A stretch of 60,788 nt of DNA from a virus. The notes under the pieces were generated by a model. That model searched no databases. It was not told the DNA's origin and saw only the letters and a list, made by a program, of their open reading frames with translations. How positions within the stretch are numbered: the stretch's first letter is position 1; every line of letters starts with the position of its first letter. This document shows positions 43,620 to 60,788 of the stretch, in pieces. The stretch spans positions 1 to 60,788 of the IMG/VR virus record IMGVR_UViG_3300037070_008166. One strand, 5' to 3'. The position numbers were made by a program, and so were the translations under genes.

Positions 43620-43621
43620 CT

Positions 43622-46545: not shown

Positions 46546-46547
46546 TT

Positions 46548-46925: not shown

Positions 46926-46960
46926 TCATTGGTGCCAGATCCGGACGATCACCAACAGAA

Positions 46961-46996: not shown

Positions 46997-47001
46997 GGCT
47001 G

Positions 47002-48609: not shown

Positions 48610-48611
48610 GG

Positions 48612-49025: not shown

Positions 49026-49240
49026 TAATCTACCCTCCTCACGTCGACCACTTTGACCACATCTTCGCTGTTCGGATTGAGGTCGTTCCAGAACGACTCG
49101 TAGACCGCTTCCACGTCCGCCGGTGTCTTACTTGTGCGGAACATGAGATTGTCCTTCGTGTCGATCACTTCCACGCGGGCCTTCCCCACCCGCCGTCGCG
49201 TTGCCCGGCTCATGGCGACGGCGGTCACTGCGAACTTCAT
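49025..49240 (-). CDS. 71-residue protein, unknown
   Basis: ATG at 49240 overlaps the previous TGA (ATGA) with GGAG seven bases upstream; an ATG four codons earlier is less well placed. A basic beta segment (ATRRRVGKARVEVIDTKDN) precedes a helical, acidic part. Ends at the base where the coiled-coil gene starts. Confidence 0.55.
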   Translation of the reverse strand: MKFAVTAVAMSRATRRRVGKARVEVIDTKDNLMFRTSKTPADVEAVYESFWNDLNPNSEDVVKVVDVRRVD

Positions 49241-49473
49241 GGTTGACTCCATCCTAGCTGTTCTATCATCTGAGTGAGATTGACTTCACCCATCGAATTC
49301 CACACAACAAATATCTTCCCAGATGCTGTGTGAAATGCACGTGCGCCATACGGACCACACGACGGAAAGCCATCGTGGCCGTATTTCACACTGACGATTG
49401 TCTCGTTCAGCAACGCATCAAAGCTGACGTGACGACGGATCCATCGCTTTTCTTTCTTGGTGCCAGATTCCAT
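49237..49473 (-). CDS. 78-residue protein, KTFN-like fold possible
   Basis: Starts at the ATG at 49473 (GGAG upstream), seven bases after the helicase ends; 18 earlier codons in frame are within the helicase gene. The start encodes MESGTKKEKRW, where the TCTGGCACCA decamer is coding. The rest is beta-rich (GARAFHTASGKIFVVWNSMG), reminiscent of small KTSC-like proteins but not secure. Function unknown. Confidence 0.55.
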   Translation of the reverse strand: MESGTKKEKRWIRRHVSFDALLNETIVSVKYGHDGFPSCGPYGARAFHTASGKIFVVWNSMGEVNLTQMIEQLGWSQP

Positions 49474-49477
49474 CGTC

Positions 49478-50932
49478 CTACTCCGTGACCCAGACCAAGG
49501 ACTTCTTGGCCCGCGTGATAGCGACATACTGGATGTTCTTTTCTTCCTGGTTGTGGTTGCGCAGCGTCGACTGCAGCACGAACACCCGGTCGGCCTCCAG
49601 ACCCTTCGACTTGTGGACCGACGAGCACGTGATCATACCCGCCTTGCCCAAGCCGTCATCCACGAACAACGCTTCGATGCGATCGAGCACTTCAGCCACA
49701 TCCTCGGCTCCATCCGTGAGCTCGATGAGCATGTCCGCCTTGTCCCGGATTCCCTCGACCAGTTTCTCCCGCTTCGCTCGGATCATCCGGTCGATTTCCC
49801 GTTCCCGCCACGCGATGAGTCGGTCCGTGAACTCGGCGACCGTTCGCGCCTTCAGCTTGCGGCACAGTGCAATCAGACCCTGACCAATGTTCCGGCCTTC
49901 GATCTGGGTGCGTTTGCCATTCCGGAGCAGCCGCATCGCCACGTTGACGAGCGGGGCGTTCACCCGCGAGAGGATGAAGTCGCCGGGACCTGCTTCCAGG
50001 AAGAGCTCGTGATACTTGATCGTTCGCACCTCACCCTCGTGATTGTCCGGCCCTGCGCTGAAGTCTTCCACCAACCGCTGCGCTTCTGCCACGATGGCTT
50101 TTCCACACCGATACGTGGTGGTCAGTGGGAGTTCCTCGGCGTCCAGTTCCTGCTGAATTCGCGCCATGGACTCCGAGTCCGCACCACGAAAGGCGTAGAT
50201 CGCTTGCATGTCATCACCGACGCCGGCGATCCGGTTCCGGCACACGCCCATGGCCAGTTCCAGCTGCGCCTTGGTCATGTCCTGCATCTCGTCGATTACC
50301 ACGAGGTCATACGACTTGTGCATCCAGCCGTTGCGGACTGGCAGAAAGATCATGTCCGCGCCGTCGATCCCGGTCAATACCGGCTTCACCGACGCGGCCA
50401 GCTCCATCGCTTCGAGCGCCTTCGTCTCCACGAACTCCGCACCGAAGCCGAGCGGCTCGTAGGCTTCATCCGGAACCAGTTCGAACTGATACTGGATGTC
50501 GGTCAGATCGCCGACCTTGCGAGCGTGTGGTTCCATCTCGCGACCCTTCGAGTGCAGCTTGGAAATCAGCTTCTTGATCGCGTCTGGCACACGCACGCCG
50601 CACACTTGCTGCGTGAGGTTGTCCTGGCGATCATCCTCGAAGTTCACGATGACGTCGGGCCAGTAGATCTTGACACACGCGAGGCCGACGCCGTGCAGGG
50701 TCTTCACAGTCGCGCGGGAGTTGCGTTGCTTGAACTCCTTGGCGATGCGGTTGTTGTAGGCGCAGTAGAGAATGTCGCGTTCCGGCGCGGCATTGATCCC
50801 GTCCAGCGCCGTGGTCGACTTCCCGGTGCCGGCTCGAGCCTTGATGATGAGATAGGGGCGATGCACGAGCGGCAGTCCCAGGCCGAACTTGAACCACCGA
50901 ATGATCGCCTCTTGTTGCAGTGAGTGTTTCAT
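49478..50932 (-). CDS. UvrD-like SF1 DNA helicase
   Basis: 484 residues with the SF1A motif set: Walker A KARAGTGKSTT (residues 31-41), VVIDEMQDMT (II), GVGDDMQAIYAFRGAD (III), TTYRC (IV), HKSKGLEADRVFVLQ (V) and YVAITRAKKSLVWV (VI). Length is shorter than cellular UvrD, lacking large 1B/2B insertions. It unwinds DNA during replication, recombination or repair. First gene of its block, directly after leader A with CTGAGGAGG as ribosome site. Confidence 0.93.
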   Translation of the reverse strand: MKHSLQQEAIIRWFKFGLGLPLVHRPYLIIKARAGTGKSTTALDGINAAPERDILYCAYNNRIAKEFKQRNSRATVKTLHGVGLACVKIYWPDVIVNFEDDRQDNLTQQVCGVRVPDAIKKLISKLHSKGREMEPHARKVGDLTDIQYQFELVPDEAYEPLGFGAEFVETKALEAMELAASVKPVLTGIDGADMIFLPVRNGWMHKSYDLVVIDEMQDMTKAQLELAMGVCRNRIAGVGDDMQAIYAFRGADSESMARIQQELDAEELPLTTTYRCGKAIVAEAQRLVEDFSAGPDNHEGEVRTIKYHELFLEAGPGDFILSRVNAPLVNVAMRLLRNGKRTQIEGRNIGQGLIALCRKLKARTVAEFTDRLIAWREREIDRMIRAKREKLVEGIRDKADMLIELTDGAEDVAEVLDRIEALFVDDGLGKAGMITCSSVHKSKGLEADRVFVLQSTLRNHNQEEKNIQYVAITRAKKSLVWVTE

Positions 50933-51011
50933 GGAGCCTCCTCAGGCCGGTTAATTCCGGCGACGCGGACGGATCTGGATGGTGCCAGATCCGTCGCGAA
51001 TTGATGCGTTT
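50933..51011 (-). promoter_or_regulatory. Repeated two-hairpin leader, copy A (helicase block)
   Basis: In minus orientation: TAGAAA, then hairpin 1 (GACGGATCTGG/CCAGATCCGTC, 50968-50995, 11 bp perfect, with GCACCAT at the apex), then hairpin 2 (GCCGG/CCGGC, 50946-50961, loop AATTAA), then CCTGAGGAGG and ATG. TAGAAA contains the stop of the upstream gene. Same architecture as copies B-F. Confidence 0.8.
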
Positions 51012-51179
51012 CTAGCTCCGGCTCGCTTCCGCGACGACTGGCGGCCACACGATTCCTGCACACGCGGTGCAGATCGCAATCTCACGCTTGATGTTGCCGT
51101 CCTCGTAGCGTTCGACGACTTCCTTCGTCATGGGTTCGTGCAGCTTCGTGATCTTCTGGCAGAGCTGACATCTAAACAT
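51012..51179 (-). CDS. 55-residue zinc-knuckle protein
   Basis: ATG at 51179 overlaps the end of the upstream gene by eight bases. Two C-x2-C pairs (MFRCQLCQKI and ICTACAGIVWPP) separated by about 30 residues make a treble-clef or ribbon-like zinc site. The last gene of its block; its TAG is the TAG of the leader's TAGAAA box. Possible nucleic-acid or host-protein binder. Confidence 0.65.
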   Translation of the reverse strand: MFRCQLCQKITKLHEPMTKEVVERYEDGNIKREIAICTACAGIVWPPVVAEASRS

Positions 51180-51375
51180 GTTTCTCTCCTTCCGTCACAG
51201 GCAGCATGTCGATGTGCACGCGGCACCCGGTCAGCTTCTCGAGGAACTGCTCGGTCTCGAGAATCTTCTGGGTGATTTCCACGGCGTTGAGCGTCTCCGC
51301 ATCCACCGGATACCCTGGCACGATGGCCAGGGTTTCCGTGGAACGCTTCACGGTGAGATGGAACTTGACCTTCAC
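51172..51375 (-). CDS. 67-residue protein, unknown
   Basis: GTG start at 51375 overlaps the previous TGA, with AAGGAGGCGAA upstream. The longer in-frame ORF to 51507 lies in the previous gene. Alpha/beta sequence (VKFHLTVKRSTETLAIVPGY, LNAVEITQKILETEQFLEKL). No family recognised. Confidence 0.6.
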   Translation of the reverse strand: MKVKFHLTVKRSTETLAIVPGYPVDAETLNAVEITQKILETEQFLEKLTGCRVHIDMLPVTEGEKHV

Positions 51376-51944
51376 TTCGCCTCCTTGGTGAACGCGCCGG
51401 TGAACAACCAGCGCAGCCGGTGCTTCAGCGGGACGGTGTTGAACAACGTCGTGGTCTCCAGGACCTGGAGGCGGAGCTCGTCGACCTGCGATTCGAGCGA
51501 CTTGCACCGGGCCTCGTATTCCCGACGGTCGAGCCGCATCTGCGACATCGCGGATTCGGTGACCGACGTCACGGTTTCCTTCAGGATGTCCTGTCCCTCG
51601 AGCTGCTCGGTGATCTTTTCGACGATCACTTCGTCCAGGTCCTTCTCCTTCACAAACTCGTCGAAGTCCAAGTCGTCGACGGCCTTTTCCACCATCGAAT
51701 CCAGGTTGTTGACGACCAGATCCTCGAGCCGACGGTCGAACTCCCGGCTCTCGAGCACTGACTCCCGGACTGCGTCTTCATCCAGGATCTCGGGCAGGTC
51801 TTCGATGCGCTTCTCGAGCAACGAGAGGAACGCTTCGGTGTGTTCACCGAGTCGACGGTCGAACTCGGTGGTAAACAACGGGTCCGTGCAGAACTGACAG
51901 GTGCCATTGATGCAGGTGCAGATACGAACAGGTGTGGTGCTCAC
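51372..51944 (-). CDS. 190-residue coiled-coil protein with N-terminal cysteine cluster
   Basis: Residues 9-19 hold CTCINGTCQFC, four cysteines in a tight cluster likely to bind zinc. The rest is highly charged and helical (LEKRIEDLPEILDEDAVRES, REYEARCKSLESQVDELRLQ), predicting long coiled coils. Start overlaps the previous gene by four bases. No family recognised. Confidence 0.6.
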   Translation of the reverse strand: MSTTPVRICTCINGTCQFCTDPLFTTEFDRRLGEHTEAFLSLLEKRIEDLPEILDEDAVRESVLESREFDRRLEDLVVNNLDSMVEKAVDDLDFDEFVKEKDLDEVIVEKITEQLEGQDILKETVTSVTESAMSQMRLDRREYEARCKSLESQVDELRLQVLETTTLFNTVPLKHRLRWLFTGAFTKEAK

Positions 51945-52141
51945 AGGGCCTCCTTCTTTTCGGTGATGTCATCGGTGGATGGAACGACGCGCCACTCGCG
52001 GACCAGGAGCCAGCGGCCCATCAGGTCCACGGCGTAGCGTTCGGCTTCCAGTTCGGTGCGGAACCGCAGCGCGTTGCCGGCCCAGACGCCGGAACTGTCA
52101 GCGATCACTTCGACTTTGAACGACTTCATCACGTCACTCAT
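51941..52141 (-). CDS. 66-residue protein, unknown
   Basis: Starts at 52141, eight bases inside the upstream gene; an internal ATG four codons later is an alternative. FKVEVIADSSGVWAGNALRF and LEAERYAVDLMGRWLLVREW suggest a small strand-helix-strand fold. Function unknown. Confidence 0.55.
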   Translation of the reverse strand: MSDVMKSFKVEVIADSSGVWAGNALRFRTELEAERYAVDLMGRWLLVREWRVVPSTDDITEKKEAL

Positions 52142-52331
52142 CGTAGAGCTCCTGTTCCACGCCAGCCCACTTGGCCAGAACTGAACTAATCACGAAGGAC
52201 TTCGAGCAGTTGAATCGCGCCGCGTCCCGTTCCACCCGACGGCGAATCGCCGGGTGGAGGGAGGACGGGGACGGGATGCGGATGACGTCGCGAATGCGCG
52301 GCTGGTTGCGAAGCGTCTTGTGCTTAGGCAT
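52134..52331 (-). CDS. Ribbon-helix-helix-like DNA-binding protein, putative
   Basis: 65 residues. A basic N-terminus (MPKHKTLRNQPRIRDVIRI) precedes HPAIRRRVERDAARFNCSKS and FVISSVLAKWAG, matching the strand-helix-helix layout of Arc/CopG-type proteins. It could regulate the block in which it lies, perhaps by binding the repeated leader DNA (speculation). Confidence 0.5.
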   Translation of the reverse strand: MPKHKTLRNQPRIRDVIRIPSPSSLHPAIRRRVERDAARFNCSKSFVISSVLAKWAGVEQELYDE

Positions 52332-52554
52332 TGGCCCTCTTTTCCATACGGCGCTTGGCCCAGGATGCCTTCATTGCCAGCGAGCGGCGACGAGAGACAC
52401 TGAAGCTGGTGCGCTTCTTCACCACTTTCCTTCGCTTCCAGGTCGTCTTGCCAACGATCTTCGCCGCCATTGCCGGCGTGCCTGGTATCTCGAACAACGC
52501 ATCGAGCGCATCCGCTGCAAACCGCAACTTCTGTGAGAGTGTCTTGATCGTCAT
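52324..52554 (-). CDS. 76-residue very basic protein
   Basis: An N-terminal helical part (LSQKLRFAADALDALFEIPG) is followed by a Lys/Arg-rich tail (TTWKRRKVVKKRTSFSVSRR). Probably binds nucleic acid. Coupled to the next gene by an 8-base overlap. No family recognised. Confidence 0.5.
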   Translation of the reverse strand: MTIKTLSQKLRFAADALDALFEIPGTPAMAAKIVGKTTWKRRKVVKKRTSFSVSRRRSLAMKASWAKRRMEKRANA

Positions 52555-52557
52555 GGG

Positions 52558-52941
52558 TCACATCCCGTAGGTGGCGTAAGTGAAGACTTCCTTCTTCAGA
52601 TACGACTCGAGGAAGTCGTAGACCTCGGCGTCATACGACTTCTTGAACATGGCCTGCAGCTTCGGCGACTCCTTGAATTCCTTCATCCGCTTCAAGGACT
52701 CCTCGAACCGATTCGCGTCGAGCACGATCTCGATCACGTGTGACTTGGGCAAGCTGACGTTCTCCGCGGTGTGCTTGCCCCGGCGACCGTAGCCATTCTT
52801 TTCCATCGCGATGGCTTCCAGCACATCCCCAGCGCAGTCGTTCCACACCCCATCCGCGGCCCAGCGGATGGCACGGAGTTCGGTCTCGGACAGGTCGAAC
52901 TGCTTCTTCAATTGCGTCAGCGTCTTCGTTGAGCGTTTCAT
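52558..52941 (-). CDS. 127-residue protein, unknown, first of block B
   Basis: Starts at 52941 directly after leader B (CTGAGGAGGTTCC). The sequence is helical and charged (LKKQFDLSETELRAIRWAAD, RFEESLKRMKEFKESPKLQA) with a conserved-looking aromatic C-terminus (YLKKEVFTYATYG). No family recognised. Confidence 0.6.
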   Translation of the reverse strand: MKRSTKTLTQLKKQFDLSETELRAIRWAADGVWNDCAGDVLEAIAMEKNGYGRRGKHTAENVSLPKSHVIEIVLDANRFEESLKRMKEFKESPKLQAMFKKSYDAEVYDFLESYLKKEVFTYATYGM

Positions 52942-53008
52942 GGAACCTCCTCAGGCCCGTCTATTCGGGCGAGTCGCGACCTTGGTGCCAGATTTCGCGA
53001 ACTTTCTA
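52942..53008 (-). promoter_or_regulatory. Repeated two-hairpin leader, copy B
   Basis: Minus orientation: TTAGAAAG, a weaker hairpin 1 (TCGCGA at 52974-52979 and 52995-53000) whose loop holds TCTGGCACCAAGG, then hairpin 2 GCCCG/CGGGC (52955-52970, loop AATAGA) and CCTGAGGAGGTTCC before ATG. Here the TAGAAA box is not the stop of the identified upstream gene, which ends at 53152, so the box is likely a conserved part of the element. Confidence 0.75.
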
Positions 53009-53151
53009 ACTCCATGCAGTAATTTGGGCGACTGGGACGACTTTGAGCCAGCCCAGGCGACCGCCCAGGACGCGTCCGGAACGGCGGTAAGGGTAGCGTC
53101 CCCTCCGTCCGTTCCGGCCGTCCTGTGTCGGGTATCTAACCTGAACGCGCC
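53009..53151 (-). other. 143-base gap upstream of leader B
   Basis: No convincing gene. One frame is open on the minus strand down to the TAG at 53006 but lacks a start codon outside the upstream gene. The stretch is GC-rich with short repeats of CCGGAACGGACGG and CCGCCGTTCCGGACG that could pair. It may be a decayed small gene or an extended upstream part of the leader. Confidence 0.35.
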
Positions 53152-53490
53152 CTATCCCGCGACTTTCTCGAGCGTGTCCAGTCGGTAGCGCTGGCCGAGG
53201 CCAGTTCCGTGACCCATGCCGTGTTTCCGTTCGCACGAATCACACATGAGAGCCCACGGCCCCATCAGTGTCTTGCCATCCGTGAAGAAATCCTTCAACG
53301 GCTGGTGGCACATCTCGCACTTCACGGGCGTGACCCCCATCCACTTGCGCTTTTCCACCGTCTTCCTCCCTTCTTTGTGGGCGAGCACCGCGCCCACGGT
53401 CAGGTCCACGAATCGCGGGCCACCCACGCGGGCGATCCGTTCTTCCTGGACTTGCTCGAACGTGACCGGACGTCGTCTATTTGGTGACAT
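53152..53490 (-). CDS. 112-residue zinc-ribbon protein
   Basis: Two C-x2-C pairs (VKCEMCHQPLKDF and LMCDSCERKHGMGHGTGLGQ) enclose about 27 residues, a zinc-ribbon arrangement. The MGHGTGLG tail is distinctive. The N-terminus is basic. It ends block C. Likely protein or nucleic-acid binding; family not recognised. Confidence 0.65.
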   Translation of the reverse strand: MSPNRRRPVTFEQVQEERIARVGGPRFVDLTVGAVLAHKEGRKTVEKRKWMGVTPVKCEMCHQPLKDFFTDGKTLMGPWALMCDSCERKHGMGHGTGLGQRYRLDTLEKVAG

Positions 53491-53779
53491 CGGTGTAGAC
53501 CTCCAGTTCGAAATCGAGGAACTCGCGAATCGTCATGTCCGGCATCGCGCACGTCCAGATGCCAAGGCACGTGTCGGCGGCGACGTCGAACAGCGTCGCC
53601 TTCGCCGCCTCGAGCACCTGCTCACCCTGTTCCAGCGCTGTGTCCTCCTGTCCCTTCTCGGAGATGAAGAGCAACTCCATCTTCAACGCCCGCACCAGCT
53701 TGCCCTCGTCTTCCTTGTCCGGGTGATGATCCCGACCCAGGAAGCCGTCCATATCCACTTTCGTCACGCGGAACAACAT
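53477..53779 (-). CDS. 100-residue protein, unknown
   Basis: ATG at 53779 follows GGAGGAG and overlaps the upstream stop (TGATG); the in-frame ATG at 53815 lies in the upstream gene. Alpha/beta with MLFRVTKVDMDGFLGRDHH and MTIREFLDFELEVYTDV. No family recognised. Confidence 0.55.
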   Translation of the reverse strand: MLFRVTKVDMDGFLGRDHHPDKEDEGKLVRALKMELLFISEKGQEDTALEQGEQVLEAAKATLFDVAADTCLGIWTCAMPDMTIREFLDFELEVYTDVTK

Positions 53780-54009
53780 CAGAACTCCTCCTTGTAGCCG
53801 AGCAATTCGAACCACGTGGTGCCGCCAACGATTGACAGCTTCCCGGTGCCATACATGTCCACGGCATAATTGTATGCCGTGGACACGTCGTAGGCTTTTC
53901 CAAGTCGACGCTCCGCGTAGATCTTCGCGGCGGCGAGTGTGTAGAACACCTTCGACTCCTTCAGTCCGTCGATGGTGGTGTAGCGCAGCCGGATGAGATT
54001 ACCGGACAT
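53779..54009 (-). CDS. 76-residue protein, unknown
   Basis: Beta-rich start (NLIRLRYTTIDGLKESKVFY) followed by a helix (LAAAKIYAERRLGKAYDVS) and Gly-rich strands. Overlaps neighbours on both sides. No family recognised. Confidence 0.55.
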   Translation of the reverse strand: MSGNLIRLRYTTIDGLKESKVFYTLAAAKIYAERRLGKAYDVSTAYNYAVDMYGTGKLSIVGGTTWFELLGYKEEF

Positions 54010-54199
54010 CGAAGTGATCCATGGCGGTGGCGAGCAGATGATTGTAGTCCCCGCTTCTCATCTCCTTCATCACCTCGTCGATCTGCTCCTTGGTCCAGCC
54101 CGCCTTGCGAGCCGCTTCCTTGCACCGACCGAGAATGGCGAAGGCGTTTCCATCCTCACCAACCAGCTTCACCTTGGGACGCTTGCGCGTATCAGACAT
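53999..54199 (-). CDS. 66-residue phage protein of a recurrent family, unknown function
   Basis: ATG at 54199 with GGAGGTGCGAG upstream. VGEDGNAFAILGRCKEAARK and MRSGDYNHLLATAMDHFDV are a pattern I recall in many phage and prophage small proteins; role unknown. The 14 earlier in-frame codons belong to the upstream gene. Confidence 0.65.
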   Translation of the reverse strand: MSDTRKRPKVKLVGEDGNAFAILGRCKEAARKAGWTKEQIDEVMKEMRSGDYNHLLATAMDHFDVR

Positions 54200-54482
54200 C
54201 TCGCACCTCCACCAACTTGCAGACACGCATGAGATCTGCACGAATCTCTGGATACTCCTCTGAACCGTCAGCCGACACCGCGATCCTGAACGCCAGATCC
54301 TGGTCTAGACCCAATCTGTCCAAACATTCGGCGTAGTCGACGTCATGTCGATCAGCGACGGCAGTGATTGGACACACGTTCAAGCCGTTGGTTTCGTCTT
54401 TGGAACGAACTCGTTCGCCCCAATACAGATACCACGTGCGGTTCAACGCGGCCAGCTTCTCGAGGAACTCTTCATAGCTCAC
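54192..54482 (-). CDS. 96-residue protein, unknown
   Basis: GTG start at 54482 overlaps the upstream TGA, with GAGGAGG upstream. EEFLEKLAALNRTWYLYWGE and HDVDYAECLDRLGLDQDLAF suggest a compact alpha/beta protein. The long in-frame extension to 54692 overlaps two other genes and is rejected. Confidence 0.6.
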   Translation of the reverse strand: MSYEEFLEKLAALNRTWYLYWGERVRSKDETNGLNVCPITAVADRHDVDYAECLDRLGLDQDLAFRIAVSADGSEEYPEIRADLMRVCKLVEVRDV

Positions 54483-54649
54483 AGCACCACCTCCTCGACC
54501 AACGGCGTGCCGGGTGGCGGCGGATGGAAGCCACCCTGAATCACGAACTCGGCACCTCGCCAACGTGAGAACAGCTGCGCGTTCGCCGGGTCCAGGTCCC
54601 ATCCTGACCCGGTCCAGTAATACGTGAACGCCTTGATGCGATACTTCAT
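54479..54649 (-). CDS. 56-residue protein, unknown
   Basis: ATG at 54649 overlaps the upstream TGA (TGATG) and the TGA overlaps the next GTG. Aromatic N-terminus (MKYRIKAFTYYWTGSGWDL) and a Pro-rich stretch (GGFHPPPPGTPLVEE). Overlaps on both sides support translation. No family recognised. Confidence 0.6.
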   Translation of the reverse strand: MKYRIKAFTYYWTGSGWDLDPANAQLFSRWRGAEFVIQGGFHPPPPGTPLVEEVVL

Positions 54650-54939
54650 CACTGGACCTCCTGTCCGCCGACCTGACGGACCGTTCGACCACCCTCTTCG
54701 ACGATGTGTTCCTGCTGCGCCCGGAGCTCCTCGACCTTCGCGACGAGGAACTCGTAGACCTTCTGCTTGTTCCCTTTCAGGCCGAACTCCTGCTTGGCGA
54801 CCGCGTAGCAGGAGCGGCCCCGCGTCAGCTTCATCCCGCGCAGTTCCGCCCGCACACCCGTCATCAGGGTGGCGAGACGGAAGTAGGCGATGCTGTCCCC
54901 GGTCACGGTCGTTCCGCCTTTGTGGTGGCTGATAGGCAT
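54649..54939 (-). CDS. 96-residue protein, unknown
   Basis: A polar start (MPISHHKGGTTVTGDSIAYF), a central helix (LATLMTGVRAELRGMKLTRG), then KQEFGLKGNKQKVYEFLVAK and a charged tail. Pattern is typical of small phage early proteins; no family recognised. Confidence 0.6.
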   Translation of the reverse strand: MPISHHKGGTTVTGDSIAYFRLATLMTGVRAELRGMKLTRGRSCYAVAKQEFGLKGNKQKVYEFLVAKVEELRAQQEHIVEEGGRTVRQVGGQEVQ

Positions 54940-54940
54940 G

Positions 54941-55144
54941 TTAGTGTCCCTCGTTCCAGGTGGAAATGTCCTCGACCGCTTCGTCGAAGGACCAGACGGG
55001 AACCGCCGTCACGGTGTATTCGTCATCTTGCTCGTCGAGTGCTTCTTCGAGCTCCACTCGCCTCAGCTCCGCCACGTCGTCGTTGGTGACGCAGATGAAG
55101 TCGAGTTGCGGGTTACCACGCCATCGAATGACGAGGGCCTTCAC
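54941..55144 (-). CDS. 67-residue acidic protein, unknown
   Basis: GTG at 55144 overlaps the upstream TGA. Short strand start (KALVIRWRGNPQLDFICV), then a very acidic helix (ELRRVELEEALDEQDDEYTV). Possibly a DNA mimic or protein-binding acidic peptide, but this is speculation. The in-frame extension to 55207 overlaps the upstream gene. Confidence 0.55.
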   Translation of the reverse strand: MKALVIRWRGNPQLDFICVTNDDVAELRRVELEEALDEQDDEYTVTAVPVWSFDEAVEDISTWNEGH

Positions 55145-55398
55145 TTGACACCCGACTGATGCTGAAGCGGAACGTCGAGCCACTCGAGCGCGCCCGCCAC
55201 CCAGCATCCCGGCTTGTGGCTGTCGACGTCACCGCAGATGAGGCACTCGACGAACGTCTCCTCGCTGGTCGAGATGTTACGAACCACGACTTCCTGCAAC
55301 TGCTCGACGGCGTGAGCGATTTCCACTTCCTGTTGCATGCTCAGTGTCGGAGCCTGACTGGGGTGGGTGGGTTGATGATGGAACCAGAGTTTGGCCAT
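55141..55398 (-). CDS. 85-residue protein with cysteine-histidine cluster
   Basis: ATG at 55398, GGAGGTAGTC upstream. A helical N-terminus (MQQEVEIAHAVEQLQEVVVR) is followed by ECLICGDVDSHKPGCWVAGA, a C-x2-C...H...C set that could hold zinc. No family recognised. Confidence 0.6.
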   Translation of the reverse strand: MAKLWFHHQPTHPSQAPTLSMQQEVEIAHAVEQLQEVVVRNISTSEETFVECLICGDVDSHKPGCWVAGALEWLDVPLQHQSGVK

Positions 55399-55400
55399 GA

Positions 55401-55925
55401 CTACCTCCAAGAGAAGTGACGCTGGTCGAGGATGATCGACGTGACATCCCCGCCCGCCGGATTGGCGAACGTGAACTCTTCAAGACGCCGGTAGACCCGT
55501 TCCGCGTCTTCACGCACTTCCTCGATAACGGCTCCACGCTTCCAGTTCGTATCCACGATGAACACCGAACCGCCACCGTTCGAGCAGATGATGCGTGGTC
55601 CGATGGTGTCGGGAAGACCCATGTTCACGTAGTAACGCATCGCCCCACCCTTCTCACTGCTTTCCGTGTGACCCGCATCTTTCAACTCCTCGATGTTCGT
55701 GACGGTGCCTTCCAGCCGATACGACTGGACGAACGAATTGGCGCGGGGCCGTTCCCAGGTGTCGTTCCCGTCCACCGGCGTCCAGGTGAACTTCCACTGA
55801 CGTGTAACCATGGCGGCTCGCGCCTTCTTCACCTCCGCTTCACGCTTCGTCAGCACTTCGAGTTCGGCGTTGAGTTCCTTGCGACGTTCTTCGATGACGT
55901 GGAGTTCGTGAGTGAGTGTTGGCAT
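55401..55925 (-). CDS. 174-residue protein, coiled-coil N-terminus and beta-rich C-terminus
   Basis: Residues 1-40 form a charged helix (EERRKELNAELEVLTKREAE). The remainder is beta-rich (QWKFTWTPVDGNDTWERPR, RIICSNGGGSVFIVDTNWKR). Ends RHFSWR. No family recognised. Confidence 0.6.
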   Translation of the reverse strand: MPTLTHELHVIEERRKELNAELEVLTKREAEVKKARAAMVTRQWKFTWTPVDGNDTWERPRANSFVQSYRLEGTVTNIEELKDAGHTESSEKGGAMRYYVNMGLPDTIGPRIICSNGGGSVFIVDTNWKRGAVIEEVREDAERVYRRLEEFTFANPAGGDVTSIILDQRHFSWR

Positions 55926-56194
55926 TAGCGTCCATCCCAGTCTGAGAACGGTGTGGTGTAGCTGCGGTTGCCGCTGAGGTAGTTCACGGTCACGACGGAT
56001 TCACCGCCGTCGCCGTCGGGTTCGTAGATGCGGGCCACGAACTCCTTGGTCACGATGATCGTTTCGAAGTCGTCTTGGCGAATCATCGCGAACGTGGCCG
56101 TCACCGGGTAGTAGGCCCGGTCGGTATCGAGGAACGGACGGAACGCGCCGAACGGTTCCTCCCGCTGTCGTCGTGCGAGTTTGTCGGTCGTCAT
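55925..56194 (-). CDS. 89-residue protein, first of block C
   Basis: ATG at 56194 follows leader C and CTGAAGGAGATGCC. A basic start (MTTDKLARRQREEPFGAFRP), then strands (FETIIVTKEFVARIYEPDG, SVVTVNYLSGNRSYTTPFSD). The frame is open further upstream through the leader to 56575; see the fused ORF entry. Confidence 0.6.
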   Translation of the reverse strand: MTTDKLARRQREEPFGAFRPFLDTDRAYYPVTATFAMIRQDDFETIIVTKEFVARIYEPDGDGGESVVTVNYLSGNRSYTTPFSDWDGR

Positions 56195-56575
56195 GGCATC
56201 TCCTTCAGGCCGGTCAATTCCGGCGACCCGCCGAAATCTTTGGTGCCAGATTTCGATCTGACTCACCTGAGCTCCGCCGTTCGCCTTCTTGTCCGCCGGC
56301 TCGGGAGCCATCGGGATGGCCGTGAGCGCGACTCCACGCTCACCGCGCTCCTTCAGGGTCCACTTCGCCGCGATGGCGTCCTTCACGAACTGGTCGAACT
56401 TCGCCTGTGCCTTGTCCTCTTCCTTCAGGTCGAAGTAGTCGCGCCCCGTCTTCACCTTCTGACCGGGAGCGCGGTGACGGAACGACACCTTGAAGTCCTT
56501 CTTCCCCCTGTGCAGGGAGACCGTGAGGGTGTCGTCCATCGCGCAGGTGAACTTCGCCGTCTGATTCTTTACCAT
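55925..56575 (-). CDS. Open frame running through leader C: possible fused protein
   Basis: An ORF from ATG 56575 (alternative ATG 56641, overlapping the previous TAA) continues in frame through leader C into the gene at 56194-55925, 216 residues in total. The N-terminal gene (MVKNQTAKFTCAMDDTLTVS to about 56260) is a small beta-rich protein of unknown function. Other block ends carry TAG inside TAGAAA, which is missing here. Either the stop was lost, giving a natural fusion, or both short and long products form. An uncorrected sequencing indel is also possible. Confidence 0.5.
   Translation of the reverse strand: MVKNQTAKFTCAMDDTLTVSLHRGKKDFKVSFRHRAPGQKVKTGRDYFDLKEEDKAQAKFDQFVKDAIAAKWTLKERGERGVALTAIPMAPEPADKKANGGAQVSQIEIWHQRFRRVAGIDRPEGDAMTTDKLARRQREEPFGAFRPFLDTDRAYYPVTATFAMIRQDDFETIIVTKEFVARIYEPDGDGGESVVTVNYLSGNRSYTTPFSDWDGR
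56195..56255 (-). promoter_or_regulatory. Repeated two-hairpin leader, copy C
   Basis: Minus orientation: hairpin 1 CGAAATCT/AGATTTCG (56232-56255, 8 bp, loop holding GGCACCA), hairpin 2 GCCGG/CCGGC (56209-56224, loop AATTGA), then CCTGAAGGAG and ATG. The upstream TAGAAA box is missing in this copy, and the upstream ORF reads straight through. Confidence 0.75.
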
Positions 56576-56640
56576 GCTCGCACCTTCTGACCGATGACCA
56601 CCAGCGGAATTGCCGGTGGGTCTTGCTACGGAGCGGGCCA

Positions 56641-56925
56641 TTAGTTCCACTCCGTATCCATGATGGCGATGAATGTGAGGCATTCCATCGCCGCCTTGAA
56701 CGCATCCCGGGTGGCCGACGGGGCCGACCCGGAGTAATTGAACGAGTCCACGATCGTCCCGCGTGGTGCCAGATCCATCGGCTGTTTGAGAGACTGGTCG
56801 ATGAACGGCTGCCGCACCACGAGGAAGTGCGACGAGTTGTTGGAAACGATGAGCGCCTTGCCGTAGTCCGTGAGCACTTCGGCACAGGGTTCATACTTCG
56901 AGATTTCGATGGATGTGTTCGCCAT
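56641..56925 (-). CDS. 94-residue protein, unknown
   Basis: Start preceded by GAGGTGCC. Beta-rich N-terminus (KYEPCAEVLTDYGKALIVSN), a helical end (TRDAFKAAMECLTFIAIMD). The TGGTGCCAGA decamer complement is coding here (DLAPR). The TAA overlaps a possible ATG of the next frame. No family recognised. Confidence 0.6.
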   Translation of the reverse strand: MANTSIEISKYEPCAEVLTDYGKALIVSNNSSHFLVVRQPFIDQSLKQPMDLAPRGTIVDSFNYSGSAPSATRDAFKAAMECLTFIAIMDTEWN

Positions 56926-56935
56926 GAAGGCACCT

Positions 56936-57391
56936 CTACAGCGTGTAAACCGGGTTGAACAGCAAACGGAAGGCGTTCCAGGTCTCGCGGAGGTGGCCGC
57001 CCACCTTTTCTTCGACCCGTTCCGCCGGCCGCACCTTGTCCGCGAGCATTGCGTCCGCGTAGTTCAGGGACGCGGCCCGGCACTCCTGGCACGGTTCGTC
57101 ATCGTGAGGCGGGTCTCCTGCGTGACGATGGCACGCGTGTGGTTCATGCACGGCGATAGTTTCTCGCCGTTCAGCGTAGTCTTCCTTCGAGACAAGCTCC
57201 AGGTCGTCGTGCTCGCTGCGGTTGAGGTAGAACAGCTTGAACTCTTCGCCGAGCCCGTCGTAGCGGACCCGGAGCTCGTAGAGTTTGTTGCCGGTCCAAG
57301 AGCCGCCGTCCTTCATCGTGTAGGACAGCGTCCAGTAGGTCGTGCCGGTCTCGCGGCTCATCGCGATCTCCGGCTTGTCGAATCGAGTCAT
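56936..57391 (-). CDS. 151-residue protein, first of block D
   Basis: ATG at 57391 after leader D (CCTGACGAGGTGCC). The ORF is open further upstream through the leader to 57574, but that part overlaps the leader hairpins and the previous gene. TGTTYWTLSYTMKDGGSWTG and LRVRYDGLGEEFKLFYLNRS suggest a beta domain; HEPHACHRHAGDPPHDDEPC is Cys/His-rich and may bind metal. No family recognised. Confidence 0.6.
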   Translation of the reverse strand: MTRFDKPEIAMSRETGTTYWTLSYTMKDGGSWTGNKLYELRVRYDGLGEEFKLFYLNRSEHDDLELVSKEDYAERRETIAVHEPHACHRHAGDPPHDDEPCQECRAASLNYADAMLADKVRPAERVEEKVGGHLRETWNAFRLLFNPVYTL

Positions 57392-57464
57392 AAGGCACCT
57401 CGTCAGGCCCGTCCATTCGGGCGACGCGACGAATCTGGATGGTGGCCAGATTCGTCGTGGGTTT
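57392..57464 (-). promoter_or_regulatory. Repeated two-hairpin leader, copy D
   Basis: Minus orientation: CTAGAAA, hairpin 1 CGACGAATCTGG/CCAGATTCGTCG (57427-57457, 12 bp perfect, apex CACCAT with one inserted C), hairpin 2 GCCCG/CGGGC (57407-57422, loop AATGGA), then CCTGACGAGG and ATG. TAG is the stop of the upstream gene. Confidence 0.8.
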
Positions 57465-57635
57465 CTAGCGCCGTGGGCAGCTGATGAGACCGATATGGTC
57501 CCAATCAGCAGGAATGAACGTGCCGGAGCGATACAAGAAATGCTCGGCTCGTTCACGAGTTTCGAACGTCGCAATCAGGTTCAGCGGTGCGACGCCTTGT
57601 CCGTTGTTCCAGTAGAGAATCCACGAGAGTTTCAC
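57465..57635 (-). CDS. 56-residue protein, unknown
   Basis: GTG at 57635 preceded by GGAGGGCCT, overlapping the TGA of the tiny ORF before it. ILYWNNGQGVAPLNLIATFE and ERAEHFLYRSGTFIPADWD suggest a compact strand-helix fold. The longer in-frame ORF to 57797 overlaps other genes and is rejected. Its TAG is part of leader D. Confidence 0.6.
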   Translation of the reverse strand: MKLSWILYWNNGQGVAPLNLIATFETRERAEHFLYRSGTFIPADWDHIGLISCPRR

Positions 57636-57688
57636 AGGCCCTCCTTGAATGTTCCGTCTGGGAATACGAGCCAACGTCGCCGTTTCAT
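57632..57688 (-). CDS. 18-residue nano-ORF
   Basis: ATG at 57688 overlaps the previous TGA, GGAGG lies five bases upstream, and the TGA overlaps the following GTG. The peptide MKRRRWLVFPDGTFKEGL is basic with an FPDGTFKEG motif. The ribosome site and double overlap support translation or a coupling role for the next gene. Function unknown. Confidence 0.4.
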   Translation of the reverse strand: MKRRRWLVFPDGTFKEGL

Positions 57689-57825
57689 CTGTCCTCCAGA
57701 ATGCGACGTTCCATCTCGTCGCGAGGGTCGGCATATTCGACGCCGTCATCGTCACCCTTCTCACGCGGGTCTTGCTCGATTTCCACGTCGTCGTCATCCG
57801 GTTGGTCTTCGCCAGGATATCTCAT
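57685..57825 (-). CDS. 46-residue acidic protein
   Basis: ATG at 57825 overlaps the metalloprotease TGA (ATGA). Very acidic (DQPDDDDVEIEQDPREKGDD), ending in a short helix (RDEMERRILEDR). May mimic DNA or bind a basic host protein (speculative). Supported by overlaps at both ends. Confidence 0.55.
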   Translation of the reverse strand: MRYPGEDQPDDDDVEIEQDPREKGDDDGVEYADPRDEMERRILEDR

Positions 57826-58367
57826 CGCACGCTCCTAATCTTGTTGGCTGCAGCGGTTCGCTGCCGTTCCCGTGTCAGCACGTCTTTCCACTCCCGCGTC
57901 TCGGCCTCATGCGGCCAGATTTCCGAGAGCGCACCATACATCAGCGGCCGGAGCTCAGCGAGCAGCCCCGGATTGGTCACGAACAGCCGGAAGATCTCGG
58001 CGAACCACTCGTTCGTGTTCGCCGCGTAGCTGGTGATAGCATCTTCACCTGTTTCCCGACGCAGCTGCGCCGAGATGGTGCCGGATTTCGCACCGTGAGC
58101 CCGGTCCACGTGATGACCGAGCTCATGCGCGAGCACGCCATAGGGCGTGCGGTCGATGACGTAGCCAGGGAACGACCACGCCGGACCGCCCGTCCCGATG
58201 TGCGCGCAGCGCTTCACGGAGATGTGAATCACGTTGTTCCGGTAGTAGGCGCAGGTCCCGAAGAACGACGTATCTTCTTCGATGATGACCGGCGGAGCCA
58301 CCTGATTCAGGTTGCACCACCGTTTCACGAGGATCTCACCCGCGTAGAACATGTCACGCTTGTTCAC
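57822..58367 (-). CDS. Zinc metalloprotease-like protein (HELGHH)
   Basis: 181 residues. VLAHELGHHVDRAHG has the H-E-x-x-H zinc motif at residues 81-85 with an adjacent His, and SYAANTNEWFAEIFRLF may supply the third ligand (E120 or E124). Overall it resembles compact phage metallopeptidases; ImmA/IrrE-like is possible but not clear. No signal peptide. A cytoplasmic protease could cleave a host or phage regulator. Overlaps neighbours on both sides. Confidence 0.75.
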   Translation of the reverse strand: MNKRDMFYAGEILVKRWCNLNQVAPPVIIEEDTSFFGTCAYYRNNVIHISVKRCAHIGTGGPAWSFPGYVIDRTPYGVLAHELGHHVDRAHGAKSGTISAQLRRETGEDAITSYAANTNEWFAEIFRLFVTNPGLLAELRPLMYGALSEIWPHEAETREWKDVLTRERQRTAAANKIRSVR

Positions 58368-58569
58368 GCTTCACCTCCGTCCGGTCCACTTCGCGGAGAC
58401 CGTCGTCATAGCGGTCGGTGCGATACTTCTTGTCGAGCCGAATCAAAAAGCAGTCCCCGTCGATTCCCTCGAGCACGCCGTGCTCCTCCGGCCAATCCTC
58501 CGTCGGGTTGGCAGGGAGCAGCACGCGGTCACCGTCTTTCCAATCTTTGGTGCCAGATTTCTTGGTCAT
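58354..58569 (-). CDS. 71-residue protein, SH3-like or KOW-like fold possible
   Basis: Starts at 58569 overlapping the previous TGA. DGDRVLLPANPTEDWPEEHG and LEGIDGDCFLIRLDKKYRTD suggest a small beta barrel. The TCTGGCACCA decamer is coding here (KSGTKD). No family recognised. Confidence 0.55.
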   Translation of the reverse strand: MTKKSGTKDWKDGDRVLLPANPTEDWPEEHGVLEGIDGDCFLIRLDKKYRTDRYDDGLREVDRTEVKREQA

Positions 58570-58733
58570 CGGTCGTTCCTCGCTTCCTCAGCCCAGACCT
58601 TGCGTTGACGTTCGAACTCGTCCGCCGTCACCTGCTTCGCCCAGCGTCGCCAGCACGGCGTATGAGCTGGGACACCAAGATACCAAGTGACGCCGAACGG
58701 TTTTCCACAGATGGCGCAGCGACGCGGTTTCAT
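58566..58733 (-). CDS. 55-residue zinc-knuckle protein
   Basis: ATG at 58733, five bases past the previous stop; an upstream ATG at 58769 would overlap. RRCAICGKPFGVTWYLGVPA with AHTPCWRRW supplies three cysteines and a His for one zinc ion. A basic helical tail follows. Function unknown. Confidence 0.6.
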   Translation of the reverse strand: MKPRRCAICGKPFGVTWYLGVPAHTPCWRRWAKQVTADEFERQRKVWAEEARNDR

Positions 58734-58737
58734 CGGA

Positions 58738-59088
58738 CTACCACGAGCCTTGCGAACGACGATTGACATCCAGACGGAGATCGGACAGGTGGTCGATTCC
58801 GTTGTCGACGTAGTCCAGCTTGTCCTCGAGGTCGCTGGACAGGTCGTGCAGGTTGTCGAGGCGACGGTCTTCCGCCTTGGACAGCGTGTTCACCGGGCTG
58901 TGGTCATCACCGGTCCGCGCTTCGAGCATCTCAATCTCGTTGTCGATGTCGACCATGAGGTTGTTCATCATGTTCGCGCCGAGGTTGAATGCCTTCATCG
59001 CCTTGTTGCGCAGCGCGATGCGAGCCTTGAGCGACATCGGGCGGAACTTTCGAGCGAAGCCGTGGTTACGACGAATGGACTTAGTCAT
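58738..59088 (-). CDS. 116-residue basic helical protein, first of block E
   Basis: Starts after leader E. Basic N-terminus (KSIRRNHGFARKFRPMSLKA), then helices (NLMVDIDNEIEMLEARTGDD, LDNLHDLSSDLEDKLDYVDN) suggestive of a coiled coil. No family recognised. Confidence 0.6.
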   Translation of the reverse strand: MTKSIRRNHGFARKFRPMSLKARIALRNKAMKAFNLGANMMNNLMVDIDNEIEMLEARTGDDHSPVNTLSKAEDRRLDNLHDLSSDLEDKLDYVDNGIDHLSDLRLDVNRRSQGSW

Positions 59089-59160
59089 TGGGAACCTCCT
59101 CAGGCCGGTTCATTCCGGCGATTGAGGGCGGATGGCTTGGTGCTACCATCCGCCCGATTT
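59089..59160 (-). promoter_or_regulatory. Repeated two-hairpin leader, copy E
   Basis: Minus orientation: CTAGAAA, hairpin 1 GGGCGGATGG/CCATCCGCCC (59126-59155, 10 bp perfect, loop TAGCACCAAG), hairpin 2 GCCGG/CCGGC (59104-59119, loop AATGAA), then CCTGAGGAGGTTCC and ATG. Its hairpin 1 stem differs wholly from other copies while the loop core is kept. Confidence 0.8.
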
Positions 59161-59400
59161 CTAGTTCCTGTCGAGCTCGACGAGTTTGCGAACCACATGC
59201 GGCCGGCCTTTGCCATTCACCAACTTCTTGGCCAGGACGTCCTCGGCGACCACACGGTCGTCGAACATGGCGACGTCGTCGGTCAGTTCCGGCGACCAGA
59301 GTATGTCGGTTGAGTCGTCGAGCAGATACGAACGCTTGGCTGCTCGAGCGCCGACGGGCACGAGGTCAGACACAATCACGTAGACGATGGACTTGTTCAT
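59161..59400 (-). CDS. 79-residue protein, unknown
   Basis: ATG at 59400 overlaps the previous TGA; the longer ORF to 59643 runs through three smaller genes and is rejected. KSIVYVIVSDLVPVGARAAK and AMFDDRVVAEDVLAKKLVNG suggest an alpha/beta fold. The TAG is part of leader E. Confidence 0.6.
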   Translation of the reverse strand: MNKSIVYVIVSDLVPVGARAAKRSYLLDDSTDILWSPELTDDVAMFDDRVVAEDVLAKKLVNGKGRPHVVRKLVELDRN

Positions 59401-59543
59401 CGCTTGACCTCGATGACCTTTGAACCAGGGAAGAACACGAGAAGTTCTTTGACCGACGAGAACTTCATCACACCAGCTCCACCAACCGAAACACAAATCT
59501 GTCGGCCTTGGCGGTAATACTTCAGAGTCAGAGTCTTGGCCAT
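59397..59543 (-). CDS. 48-residue protein, unknown
   Basis: ATG at 59543 overlaps the preceding TAA, and the TGA overlaps the next ATG. The sequence TLTLKYYRQGRQICVSVGGA and KFSSVKELLVFFPGSKVIEV is beta-rich. Overlaps at both ends support translation. Confidence 0.55.
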   Translation of the reverse strand: MAKTLTLKYYRQGRQICVSVGGAGVMKFSSVKELLVFFPGSKVIEVKR

Positions 59544-59629
59544 TAGTGAGCCTCCTGAGCAACGAGCCACCGAAAGGTGGCGAACCAGACAACCACACCG
59601 ATGAGCAGGTAAGGCAGCAGCGTTTCCAT
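59543..59629 (-). CDS. 28-residue single-helix membrane peptide
   Basis: ATG at 59629. The peptide is one hydrophobic helix (LLPYLLIGVVVWFATFRWLV) with a charged tail QEAH. Its TAA overlaps the next ATG and it lies between a strong hairpin and coupled genes. Tiny membrane peptides of this form are known in phages as host-membrane modulators, but no function can be assigned. Confidence 0.5.
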   Translation of the reverse strand: METLLPYLLIGVVVWFATFRWLVAQEAH

Positions 59630-59693
59630 TTCAGTGACTCCATTGGAAGTGCCCGGCGAATCCTTGGTGCCAGATTCGCCGGGCGAGGATGAA
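59630..59693 (-). promoter_or_regulatory. Single hairpin with the leader loop (copy G, lacks hairpin 2)
   Basis: GCCCGGCGAATC (59651-59662) pairs perfectly with GATTCGCCGGGC (59673-59684), a 12-bp stem whose minus-strand loop is TGGCACCAAG. It follows the stop of the gene at 59694 and precedes the membrane peptide. It shares hairpin 1 of leaders A-F but not hairpin 2. Confidence 0.7.
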
Positions 59694-59882
59694 CTACGTG
59701 AGACGCAACTCCTTGACCATCGCGTCGAACTGCTTCTTGGTGCAGAACGACTTCTCTTCGACGGTCAGCTTGTTGTAGTTGAAGTCGAGCTCGATGAACG
59801 AGTAGCGCAAGAACTGGCGAACCACGTTCACCGTGACCAGCGTGACCGGGTGAATCAGCACGTCGCCGGTGATAGGCTTCAT
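59694..59882 (-). CDS. 62-residue protein, unknown
   Basis: The ATG at 59882 overlaps the end of the upstream gene; an in-frame GTG at 59891 is an alternative. MKPITGDVLIHPVTLVTVNV and FIELDFNYNKLTVEEKSFCT suggest a compact alpha/beta protein. No family recognised. Confidence 0.55.
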   Translation of the reverse strand: MKPITGDVLIHPVTLVTVNVVRQFLRYSFIELDFNYNKLTVEEKSFCTKKQFDAMVKELRLT

Positions 59883-59883
59883 G

Positions 59884-60060
59884 TTATCCACGCTTCACCG
59901 CCTTCAGTGTGAAGACCGCCCGGGAGTAGGAGCCGTCGCGGTATCGCTTGAACGGCTTGACCTTGACCACTTCGAAGACCTGACCCACGCGGAACACCTT
60001 GAGTTCGTTCTTGCCGTCGCGCGTCCAGGCCATCTGCACTTGAAACCGTTTCGTATTCAT
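59884..60060 (-). CDS. 58-residue basic protein, unknown
   Basis: ATG at 60060, preceded by AGGAGCCACC. Strongly basic and beta-rich (TKRFQVQMAWTRDGKNELKV, EVVKVKPFKRYRDGSYSRAV). It might be an OB- or SH3-like nucleic-acid binder; not recognised. Confidence 0.6.
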   Translation of the reverse strand: MNTKRFQVQMAWTRDGKNELKVFRVGQVFEVVKVKPFKRYRDGSYSRAVFTLKAVKRG

Positions 60061-60068
60061 GGTGGCTC

Positions 60069-60230
60069 CTAGAAGTTACGGACTCGCTCGTTGTGCCGCC
60101 GAGCCACGACACGCGCCATCTTGTCGAGCAGACTCGACGGCTTGGGCAGCTGCGACTGGGACAGCTTGTAACATGTGGAGCAGAGACCCTCGCGGGTGGC
60201 CTTCTTGATTTCACAGCAGTAGCATTTCAT
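60069..60230 (-). CDS. 53-residue zinc-knuckle protein, first of block F
   Basis: ATG at 60230 after leader F (CCTGACGAGGTTCCC). MKCYCCEIKKATREGLCSTC gives a C-x2-C...C-x2-C zinc knuckle, followed by a basic helix (LLDKMARVVARRHNERVRN). The frame is open upstream through the leader to 60413, as at leaders C and D. First gene transcribed in the minus array within this window. Confidence 0.65.
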   Translation of the reverse strand: MKCYCCEIKKATREGLCSTCYKLSQSQLPKPSSLLDKMARVVARRHNERVRNF

Positions 60231-60330
60231 GGGAACCTCGTCAGGCCCGTTCATTCGGGCGAGGCCAGCTGGCGCCAGCCTTTCTAGTTCCACGGCTTGC
60301 GAATCCGGTTGGGTGCCGAATTCGCGAGCC
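60231..60330 (-). promoter_or_regulatory. Repeated two-hairpin leader, copy F (variant)
   Basis: Minus orientation: a stem GCGAAT/ATTCGC whose loop holds GGCACCC, then ACTAGAAA, a tight palindrome GCTGGCGCCAGC (60268-60279), hairpin 2 GCCCG/CGGGC (60245-60260, loop AATGAA), then CCTGACGAGG and ATG. Order of the boxes differs from copies A-E, and TAGAAA is not a stop here. Confidence 0.65.
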
Positions 60331-60788
60331 GCGTTGGCATTGTGTTGGCTTGTATGTGGAGGACTTGTTTGCTCTGAATCCCGTTCGCCTGGACCGGCAT
60401 GCGCGAGTTTCATCAGAGTGATTCGTTACGCGGTCGTTCAGACCGTTTCGCCGTTCGCCCGAAAGCGTTTCATCCCTCAGTCCCGTATCCGCCGCGTTGC
60501 GCTCGCTCGTTGCGACTGCATGGTGCCAGATTCGCGAAGCGCGCAGGAGGACCGGCTATCCCGAGGATACCAGCACTCGACGTAGGTTTCTGGGAGGCTC
60601 TTGATTCCCTTACCCGGAACGCTTTTCAGCTCCACCGTTACGGTGGCCGGTCTCAGGGCAATTCGGCGACTCCCCGTCACCCACGCCCGTTCGGCCCTAA
60701 CACGACGGCCCGAACTAGGCCAATTATACCGCGCTGCCAGGCTGCTTGCTTGCTGCGTGGTGCCAGACGCTAACTCCTTTACTATCAA
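60331..60788 (-). promoter_or_regulatory. Gene-free right end with a -10 box and hairpins
   Basis: No convincing gene in 458 bases; an open minus frame (60477-60788) starts with TTG at the very edge and has odd composition. A perfect TATAAT lies at 60728-60723 (minus strand) with no clear -35. CCACCG/CGGTGG forms a hairpin near 60632-60646, and two TCTGGCACCA decamers occur at 60530 and 60767. Likely the control region of the minus array, possibly also holding a replication or packaging site. Confidence 0.4.

Follow-up and report, generated by a model that had tools for sequence, protein, structure and literature searches.

Hammerhead ribozymes have been described at several sites close to phage genes. 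Tandem hammerheads associated with phages have been shown to cleave in vitro, with one case of cleavage in Escherichia coli as well (PMC3088659). In the haloviruses HF1 and HF2, a hammerhead lies 13 nucleotides (nt) before the start of a helicase gene, and the 5′ end of the mRNA was mapped to no more than 3 nt from the cleavage site (PMC3088659). Engineered E. coli switches from Wieland and colleagues use a hammerhead to mask the Shine-Dalgarno sequence, which is released by self-cleavage, as described in PMC10381313. The role of bacterial and phage hammerheads, known since 2011, is still unclear in the literature consulted. Here we analyse six structured leaders, A to F, on the minus strand of a 60,788-nt viral sequence (IMG/VR record IMGVR_UViG_3300037070_008166, positions 1 to 60,788; the whole stretch is referred to as the window). 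We identify them as divergent type II hammerhead ribozymes with predicted self-cleavage, in which the Shine-Dalgarno sequence of the following gene forms part of the catalytic core.

Six leaders adopt the type II hammerhead fold

An initial annotation of the window had placed structured leaders ahead of six blocks of genes. All six are present at these places, each reads on the minus strand, and their position at the heads of gene blocks is borne out (Table 1). The annotation had described two hairpins, and both exist, but it overlooked a third helix, in which the bases immediately 5′ of TAGAAA pair with the bases after CTGANGAG (for example, GGAGC/GCTCC in A and GGAAC/GTTCC in E and F), and the real fold is a three-way junction. 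The second of the two hairpins, here stem I, was correctly reported to have GCCCG/CGGGC in B, D, and F and GCCGG/CCGGC in A, C, and E around the loop AAT-N-N-A, and TAGAAA does occur in five of the six leaders, the exception being C. Two other motifs hold in part: CCTGA-N-GAGG is found in five leaders but not in C, which has CCTGAAGGAGA, and the apex GCACCA is found in A, B, C, and E but not in D (GCCACCA) or F (GGCGCCAG). Directly after the stem I hairpin the leaders continue with CCTGANGAGG and then ATG, with C deviating.

The elements run in the order stem II, GAAA, stem III, NUC^, stem I (GCCSG-AAUNNA-CSGGC), CUGANGA, and the second strand of stem II, followed by AUG. In hammerhead numbering this corresponds to stem II - G12A13A14 - A15.1..stem III..U16.1 - C17^ - stem I - C3U4G5A6N7G8A9 - stem II, with the same circular permutation, an open stem II and closed stems I and III, in all copies. 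The initial annotation knew of no named element of this kind; however, the core elements are those of the type II hammerhead ribozyme, and the Rfam model RF02276 (Hammerhead_II) aligns correctly, in the same register, to related elements from other viruses (L014, 33.0 bits, E 0.0048; L009, 29.6 bits, E 0.037). It also matches a third relative, L019, below its gathering score. That score, 37 bits, is a library threshold and not a structural criterion of the class; it was reached by none of the elements, L014 being the best relative, and at the gathering threshold Rfam gave no matches in the window or in nine relatives. A permissive RF02276 search of the window returned chance matches only and left the six copies unreported. 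The standard Rfam model therefore overlooks whole arrays of phage hammerheads.

In stretches from the related viruses, GAAA is constant, as are the TC that precedes stem I and the CTGANGA that follows it. The base following CTGA varies freely, and the hairpin that separates GAAA from TC is wholly different from copy to copy. The CUGANGA strand is exact, apart from the variable N7, in A, B, D, E, and F, and is invariant save N7 in the relatives. Among 52 elements of the window's group, N7 is T in 27, C in 14, A in 6, and G in 5; position H17 is C in all 52, partly by construction of the search; the cleavage triplet is GUC in 43, AUC in 4, CUC in 3, and UUC in 2, with a compensating partner base; and loop I is AAUNNA in 46, a conservation that a tertiary contact between this loop and stem II would be expected to produce. 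The basal pair of stem III, A15.1-U16.1, is A-U in 63 of 63 aligned elements. Position 11.1 is C in the elements with AC or UC before GAA (31 of the 52) and A in the window copies with UAG. Unconstrained minimum-free-energy (MFE) folding closes stem II around both hairpins in A, D, E, and F, gives B in a shifted register, and fails for C. In copy C the CUGANGA strand is one base longer (CTGAAGGAGA), GAAA lacks the preceding TAG, and stem II is weak; this copy is probably slow or dead.

Covariation supports all three stems

We aligned 30 elements, all from other viruses and none from the window, and annotated the alignment with the three-stem structure. Standard base pairs fill 97.8% of the paired cells, two-sided changes occur in 13 of 17 pairs, and the covariation score is 0.639, compared with 0.175 for shuffled and at most 0.152 for slid versions. 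With the window's copies included (63 elements), two-sided changes extend to 15 of 17 pairs (4/5 in stem I, 5/5 in stem II, and 6/7 in stem III) and the score is 0.663 versus 0.161 when shuffled. A covariance model built from the 30 non-window elements, R1, finds the six leaders as six matches in the window, all on the minus strand, with E values from 5.1e-19 to 7.5e-10. A seventh match had 9.1 bits (E 1.5), and strict hammerhead geometry occurred once in 20 shuffled windows. The three-stem covariation and the independent model bear out the earlier proposal of an RNA structure that is under selection and shows compensatory changes; covarying pairs in homologous leaders, on which that proposal had been made to depend, are found in all three stems.

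Other assignments were considered. The leaders were correctly described as lacking a canonical terminator, with no terminator-like site at any of them, and a terminator reading was rejected on the same grounds. A tRNA reading was also rejected. An extra copy near the ligase gene (48694-48752; 8.8 bits, E 1.9) was discarded on inspection.

Related elements occur in other viruses and are kept at stop-to-start junctions

Searching IMG/VR with the stem I DNA pattern gave 12 stretches of other viruses, several with 7-9 copies. Whole-record searches gave eleven other virus records with 1-13 copies each: 13 in G006, 9 each in G001 and G003, 7 in G010, 3 in G004, and one or two in each of six others. 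Within each multi-copy record the copies are confined to one strand; two of the records, G002 and G008, nearly duplicate each other. G006 and G010 fall in the same broad lineage as the window virus (50-51% for the portal and 64-72% for the capsid, with terminase at 59% to G006), and no cultured close relative or cultured host was found for this lineage. An IMG/VR protein search with the helicase and the gene after leader B (gene B) gave no relatives, and in genome contigs neither a scan with the stem pattern nor a search with the capsid protein gave any match. A short-DNA blast of cultured phages found only a 19-nt chance match in Ochrobactrum phage POA1180. Ten named phage records, searched whole, yielded only a 17-nt fragment of this POA1180 match with R1 and nothing above threshold with RF02276.

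A broad pattern combining core, Shine-Dalgarno sequence, and ATG produced mostly chance matches in viral contigs. The same scan yielded L166 and L160, whose hammerheads have no Shine-Dalgarno sequence in the core. L166 (IMGVR_UViG_3300025723_000117, 239-1506) has four hammerhead-like elements before small genes, with a separate Shine-Dalgarno sequence downstream. In L135 (IMGVR_UViG_3300027784_000510, 7657-10877), nine type II hammerheads lie between small genes within ~3 kb. Most of these are followed by a TCATCAG-type sequence, complementary to the catalytic CTGATGA, and then by a separate Shine-Dalgarno sequence; the TCATCAG-type sequence could form an alternative, inactive fold with the core.

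Gene context was counted for the 52 elements of the window's group and compared with random positions drawn from the same regions. In 38 of the 52 elements, an upstream frame has its stop codon no more than 13 nt 5′ of G12 (8% at random), an ATG follows A9 by 5-15 nt in 44 (11%), and both the upstream stop, in the 5′ strand of stem II, and the downstream ATG are present in 31 (1.1%). In every window copy except C, the UAG immediately before GAAA terminates a preceding frame, which is a plausible real gene for A, D, and E and is short or uncertain for B and F. Because upstream stop codons fall inside the elements, the leaders lie within a continuous transcript. Hammerheads also head the orthologs of gene B in L011 (36%) and L014 (35%) and the ortholog of the helicase in L011 (59% identity), and another gene family keeps its hammerhead in four relatives. 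The proteins flanking these orthologous sites are only 29-59% identical and stem III has no common sequence, which argues for selection on the ribozyme.

The Shine-Dalgarno sequence is part of the catalytic core

For 50 elements, the match to the anti-Shine-Dalgarno sequence was scored within 22 nt of the start codon, and in all 50 the best match overlaps G8-A9-G10.1-G10.2. G10.1-G10.2 is GG in 48 of 52 elements, although the pattern used to find the contigs did not demand it, and in A, B, and E, where N7 is G, the full AGGAGG results. Stem II masks this stretch of the core from G8 to G10.2. The predicted energy for opening it is lower after cleavage in all six window copies, and over the 50 elements it falls from 4.47 to 3.36 kcal/mol (lower in 36 of 50; Wilcoxon p 8e-5). 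This embedding is a trait of the window's group and is not imposed by hammerhead architecture, because L135 and L166 have separate Shine-Dalgarno sequences. In the open-access literature, we found no account of a phage hammerhead with the Shine-Dalgarno sequence in this arrangement. With a ribosome-binding site located in the catalytic centre, cutting of the message and its translation are therefore probably linked.

A model for self-cleavage at gene-block boundaries

Hammerhead ribozymes self-cleave after position 17, with G8 as the general base. Taken together, sequence and covariation establish the fold, the catalytic core, the stop-to-start position, and the location of the Shine-Dalgarno sequence within the core. 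We consider it highly probable that the hammerheads make an early polycistronic RNA cut itself at block boundaries, a cleavage that we infer, giving hairpin-capped ends and freeing the Shine-Dalgarno sequence. In this model, each ribozyme in a long leftward early transcript would fold cotranscriptionally and cleave itself after C17 (..NUC^GCC..). Of the two products, the upstream message would carry the stem III hairpin and a 2′,3′-cyclic phosphate at its 3′ end, and the downstream message would have its 5′-OH right at the stem I hairpin of 5 bp, with the Shine-Dalgarno sequence and AUG coming next. Before cleavage, A6-N7-G8-A9-G10.1-G10.2 would be tied up in the core and stem II; because these bases are held there and G8 is the catalytic base, ribosome binding and cleavage would be mutually exclusive. 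Cleavage would allow the other strand of stem II to depart, leaving the Shine-Dalgarno sequence free. One long RNA would thus be split into hairpin-capped mRNAs, one for each block, with the first gene fully translatable once processed.

We also put forward, tentatively, the possibility that the arrangement is a natural regulatory device, employed many times over in a lineage of uncultured phages, in which the ribosome-binding site consists of ribozyme core nucleotides. The 30S subunit and the active ribozyme would compete for G8-A9-G10.1-G10.2, and cutting could be influenced by ribosomes that reach the upstream gene's stop codon, which is located in the opposite strand of stem II. Self-cleavage would then unmask the blocks, turning a masked polycistronic RNA into a freely translated, hairpin-capped mRNA for each. 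The repeated copies, their exact intergenic sites, their retention before orthologous genes, and the Shine-Dalgarno sequence in the core offer a concrete and testable role for phage hammerheads.

Several points weigh against the model of self-cleavage at block boundaries. The core of copy C is disrupted. Where UAG precedes GAA in the window copies, positions 10.1-11.1 form a G.A pair or leave a bulged A instead of the usual G-C, and cleavage may be slower. The predicted drop in opening energy is modest and comes from a folding model without tertiary structure. Cofolding indicates that the 5′ fragment can remain paired through stem II with the 3′ product, so release of the Shine-Dalgarno sequence may be incomplete. 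Masking could also be a by-product of having a ribozyme near a start codon, since catalysis requires stem II.

One alternative is quite plausible, if somewhat short of probable: active hammerheads might only process and stabilize the mRNA, with the overlap of the Shine-Dalgarno sequence reflecting tight gene packing and no translational control. The ribozyme fills the gap between stop and start almost exactly, and its hairpins would cap both products. The related hammerheads of L135 and L166 cut well upstream of their separate Shine-Dalgarno sequences, so processing without unmasking exists. Packing is harder to reconcile with the GG at G10.1-G10.2 in 48 of 52 elements, with the N7 = G that completes AGGAGG in A, B, and E, and with the covariation of all five stem II pairs that lie over the Shine-Dalgarno sequence.

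It is improbable that the leaders are hammerhead remnants with little remaining self-cleavage, serving now only as structured leaders or as sites for RNase processing. The core insertion in copy C, the off-consensus position 11.1 in A, B, D, E, and F, and the failure of Rfam to score any window copy would fit such decay, but the core bases are invariant over many viruses despite total replacement of stem III, and decay would not leave G8, A9, G12-A14, U16.1, and C17 intact.

The options raised by the initial annotation, a phage promoter, a DNA cruciform, or a site for a phage RNA-binding protein, would suit the location at block starts and the GCACCA apex common to most window copies, but are very unlikely: sigma-70-type -35/-10 sites number 2 in 11.8 kb versus 2.4 expected, with none at the leaders (the scan used sigma-70-type hexamers, and phage-specific promoters are outside its scope); upstream stops inside the elements indicate a continuous transcript; a cruciform is unable to account for the three-stem covariation and the invariant single-stranded GAAA, UC, and CUGANGA; and GCACCA, to which the protein site was tied, is missing from the relatives' elements and repeated in the window outside the leaders. 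Its two other suggestions, a processing site and a translation-control leader, come near self-cleavage with release of the Shine-Dalgarno sequence, except for the promoter that formed part of the latter.

Other features of the window

GCACCA at the apex is part of a strand-biased repeat that is separate from the ribozyme. All 11 occurrences of the motif TCTGGCACCA in the window are on the minus strand, mostly outside the leaders, and the repeat was not seen in the relatives' elements. An 11-mer, ATCTGGCACCA, has nine exact copies on the minus strand, none on the plus strand, and none in 20 shuffles, within 42152-60768 of the window. These sites lie in stem III loops of leaders, in an intergenic hairpin, within genes, and in non-coding sequence above F; because the intragenic copies occur in two reading frames, the 11-mer is conserved as nucleic acid. 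The copies might be polar protein-binding sites, similar to stoperators. The intergenic hairpin (59646-59694) is perfect, GCCCGGCGAATC-TGGCACCAAG-GATTCGCCGGGC, with the repeat at its loop and no hammerhead core.

On the plus strand, 1875-5978 encodes a portal protein with a C-terminal 2′-5′ RNA ligase / 2H phosphoesterase-like domain (PF13563, E 2.9e-12). This fold can act on 2′,3′-cyclic phosphates, the type of end that hammerheads leave; a connection to the ribozymes is speculative. Above the first block, a stretch of ~430 nt on the minus strand (60290-60740) is predicted to be strongly structured and includes a perfect TATAAT near 60730; it is a possible early promoter and leader region. 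The record L021 (IMGVR_UViG_3300037119_008430, 1-1695) comes from the same virus (100% over 11,878 nt) and extends 1.7 kb to the left of position 1; the window is therefore a fragment and not a complete genome.

Table 1 Hammerheads, associated genes, and 11-mer repeats in the window.
Feature	Position	Strand	Gene that follows (ATG)	Predicted cleavage	Model R1	Remarks
Hammerhead A	50925..51024	-	UvrD-like helicase (50932)	50962^50961	46.4 bits, E 6.9e-14, filters off; 54.3 bits in another R1 search	Core CTGAGGAGG (Shine-Dalgarno AGGAGG); G12 at 51012, overlapped by stop TAG 51014-51012 of 55-aa gene 51179-51012
Hammerhead B	52934..53018	-	127-aa gene (52941)	52971^52970	49.6 bits, E 4.9e-15	Core CTGAGGAGG
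Hammerhead C, degenerate	56187..56267	-	89-aa gene (56194)	56225^56224 (site equivalent)	35.1 bits, E 7.5e-10	
Hammerhead D	57386..57477	-	151-aa gene (57391)	57423^57422	51.4 bits, E 1.2e-15	Stop TAG 57467-57465 of preceding frame overlaps G12; MFE: stem II encloses both hairpins, z -5.1
Hammerhead E	59083..59173	-	116-aa gene (59088)	59120^59119	55.6 bits, E 3.5e-17	Core CTGAGGAGG; stop TAG 59163-59161 of preceding gene overlaps G12; MFE: stem II encloses both hairpins, z -4.6
Hammerhead F	60224..60296	-	53-aa gene (60230)	60261^60260	60.7 bits, E 5.1e-19	Heads first block of the window's leftward region; MFE is a three-way junction
UvrD/Rep-type superfamily I helicase gene	49478..50932	-				phrog_1967 2.1e-78; PF00580 1.9e-15; headed by hammerhead A
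127-aa gene of unknown function	52558..52941	-				Headed by hammerhead B
ATCTGGCACCA, example positions	60531, 59675, 58558, 56774, 56251, 52993, 50990, 49468, 46940	-				

Comparison with known hammerhead systems

The elements share the core, the circular permutation, and the phage setting with the type II hammerheads described by Perreault et al. (2011; RF02276, PMC3088659), as well as the presence of several copies around genes or gene blocks. They differ in stem II, which has ~5 bp and a single unpaired A beside G12, whereas the RF02276 type has ~2 bp and a pseudoknot between loop I and the 3′ tail. Further differences from that type are the conserved AAUNNA of loop I, the invisibility of the window copies to RF02276, the inclusion of the Shine-Dalgarno sequence in the core, and the placement of the upstream stop codon within stem II. 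The arrays of L135 and L166 resemble the window's group in having multiple hammerheads between small phage genes, but their own Shine-Dalgarno sequences lie further downstream, outside the core.

The hammerhead of HF1 and HF2 (HHphage), like copy A, lies just 5′ of a helicase gene, an early gene that heads a polycistronic message; unlike the window's copies, it is a single element with a variant core, and no overlap with a Shine-Dalgarno sequence is described for it (PMC3088659). The engineered switches, as PMC10381313 presents them, follow the logic proposed here, in which a ribozyme structure conceals the Shine-Dalgarno sequence and cutting exposes it. However, those constructs are man-made and combine a Schistosoma ribozyme with an added anti-Shine-Dalgarno strand, whereas in the phage elements the natural catalytic core is itself the Shine-Dalgarno sequence and is repeated along the genome. 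If the proposed role is true, these leaders would be a natural counterpart of ribozyme switches engineered to hide a ribosome-binding site.

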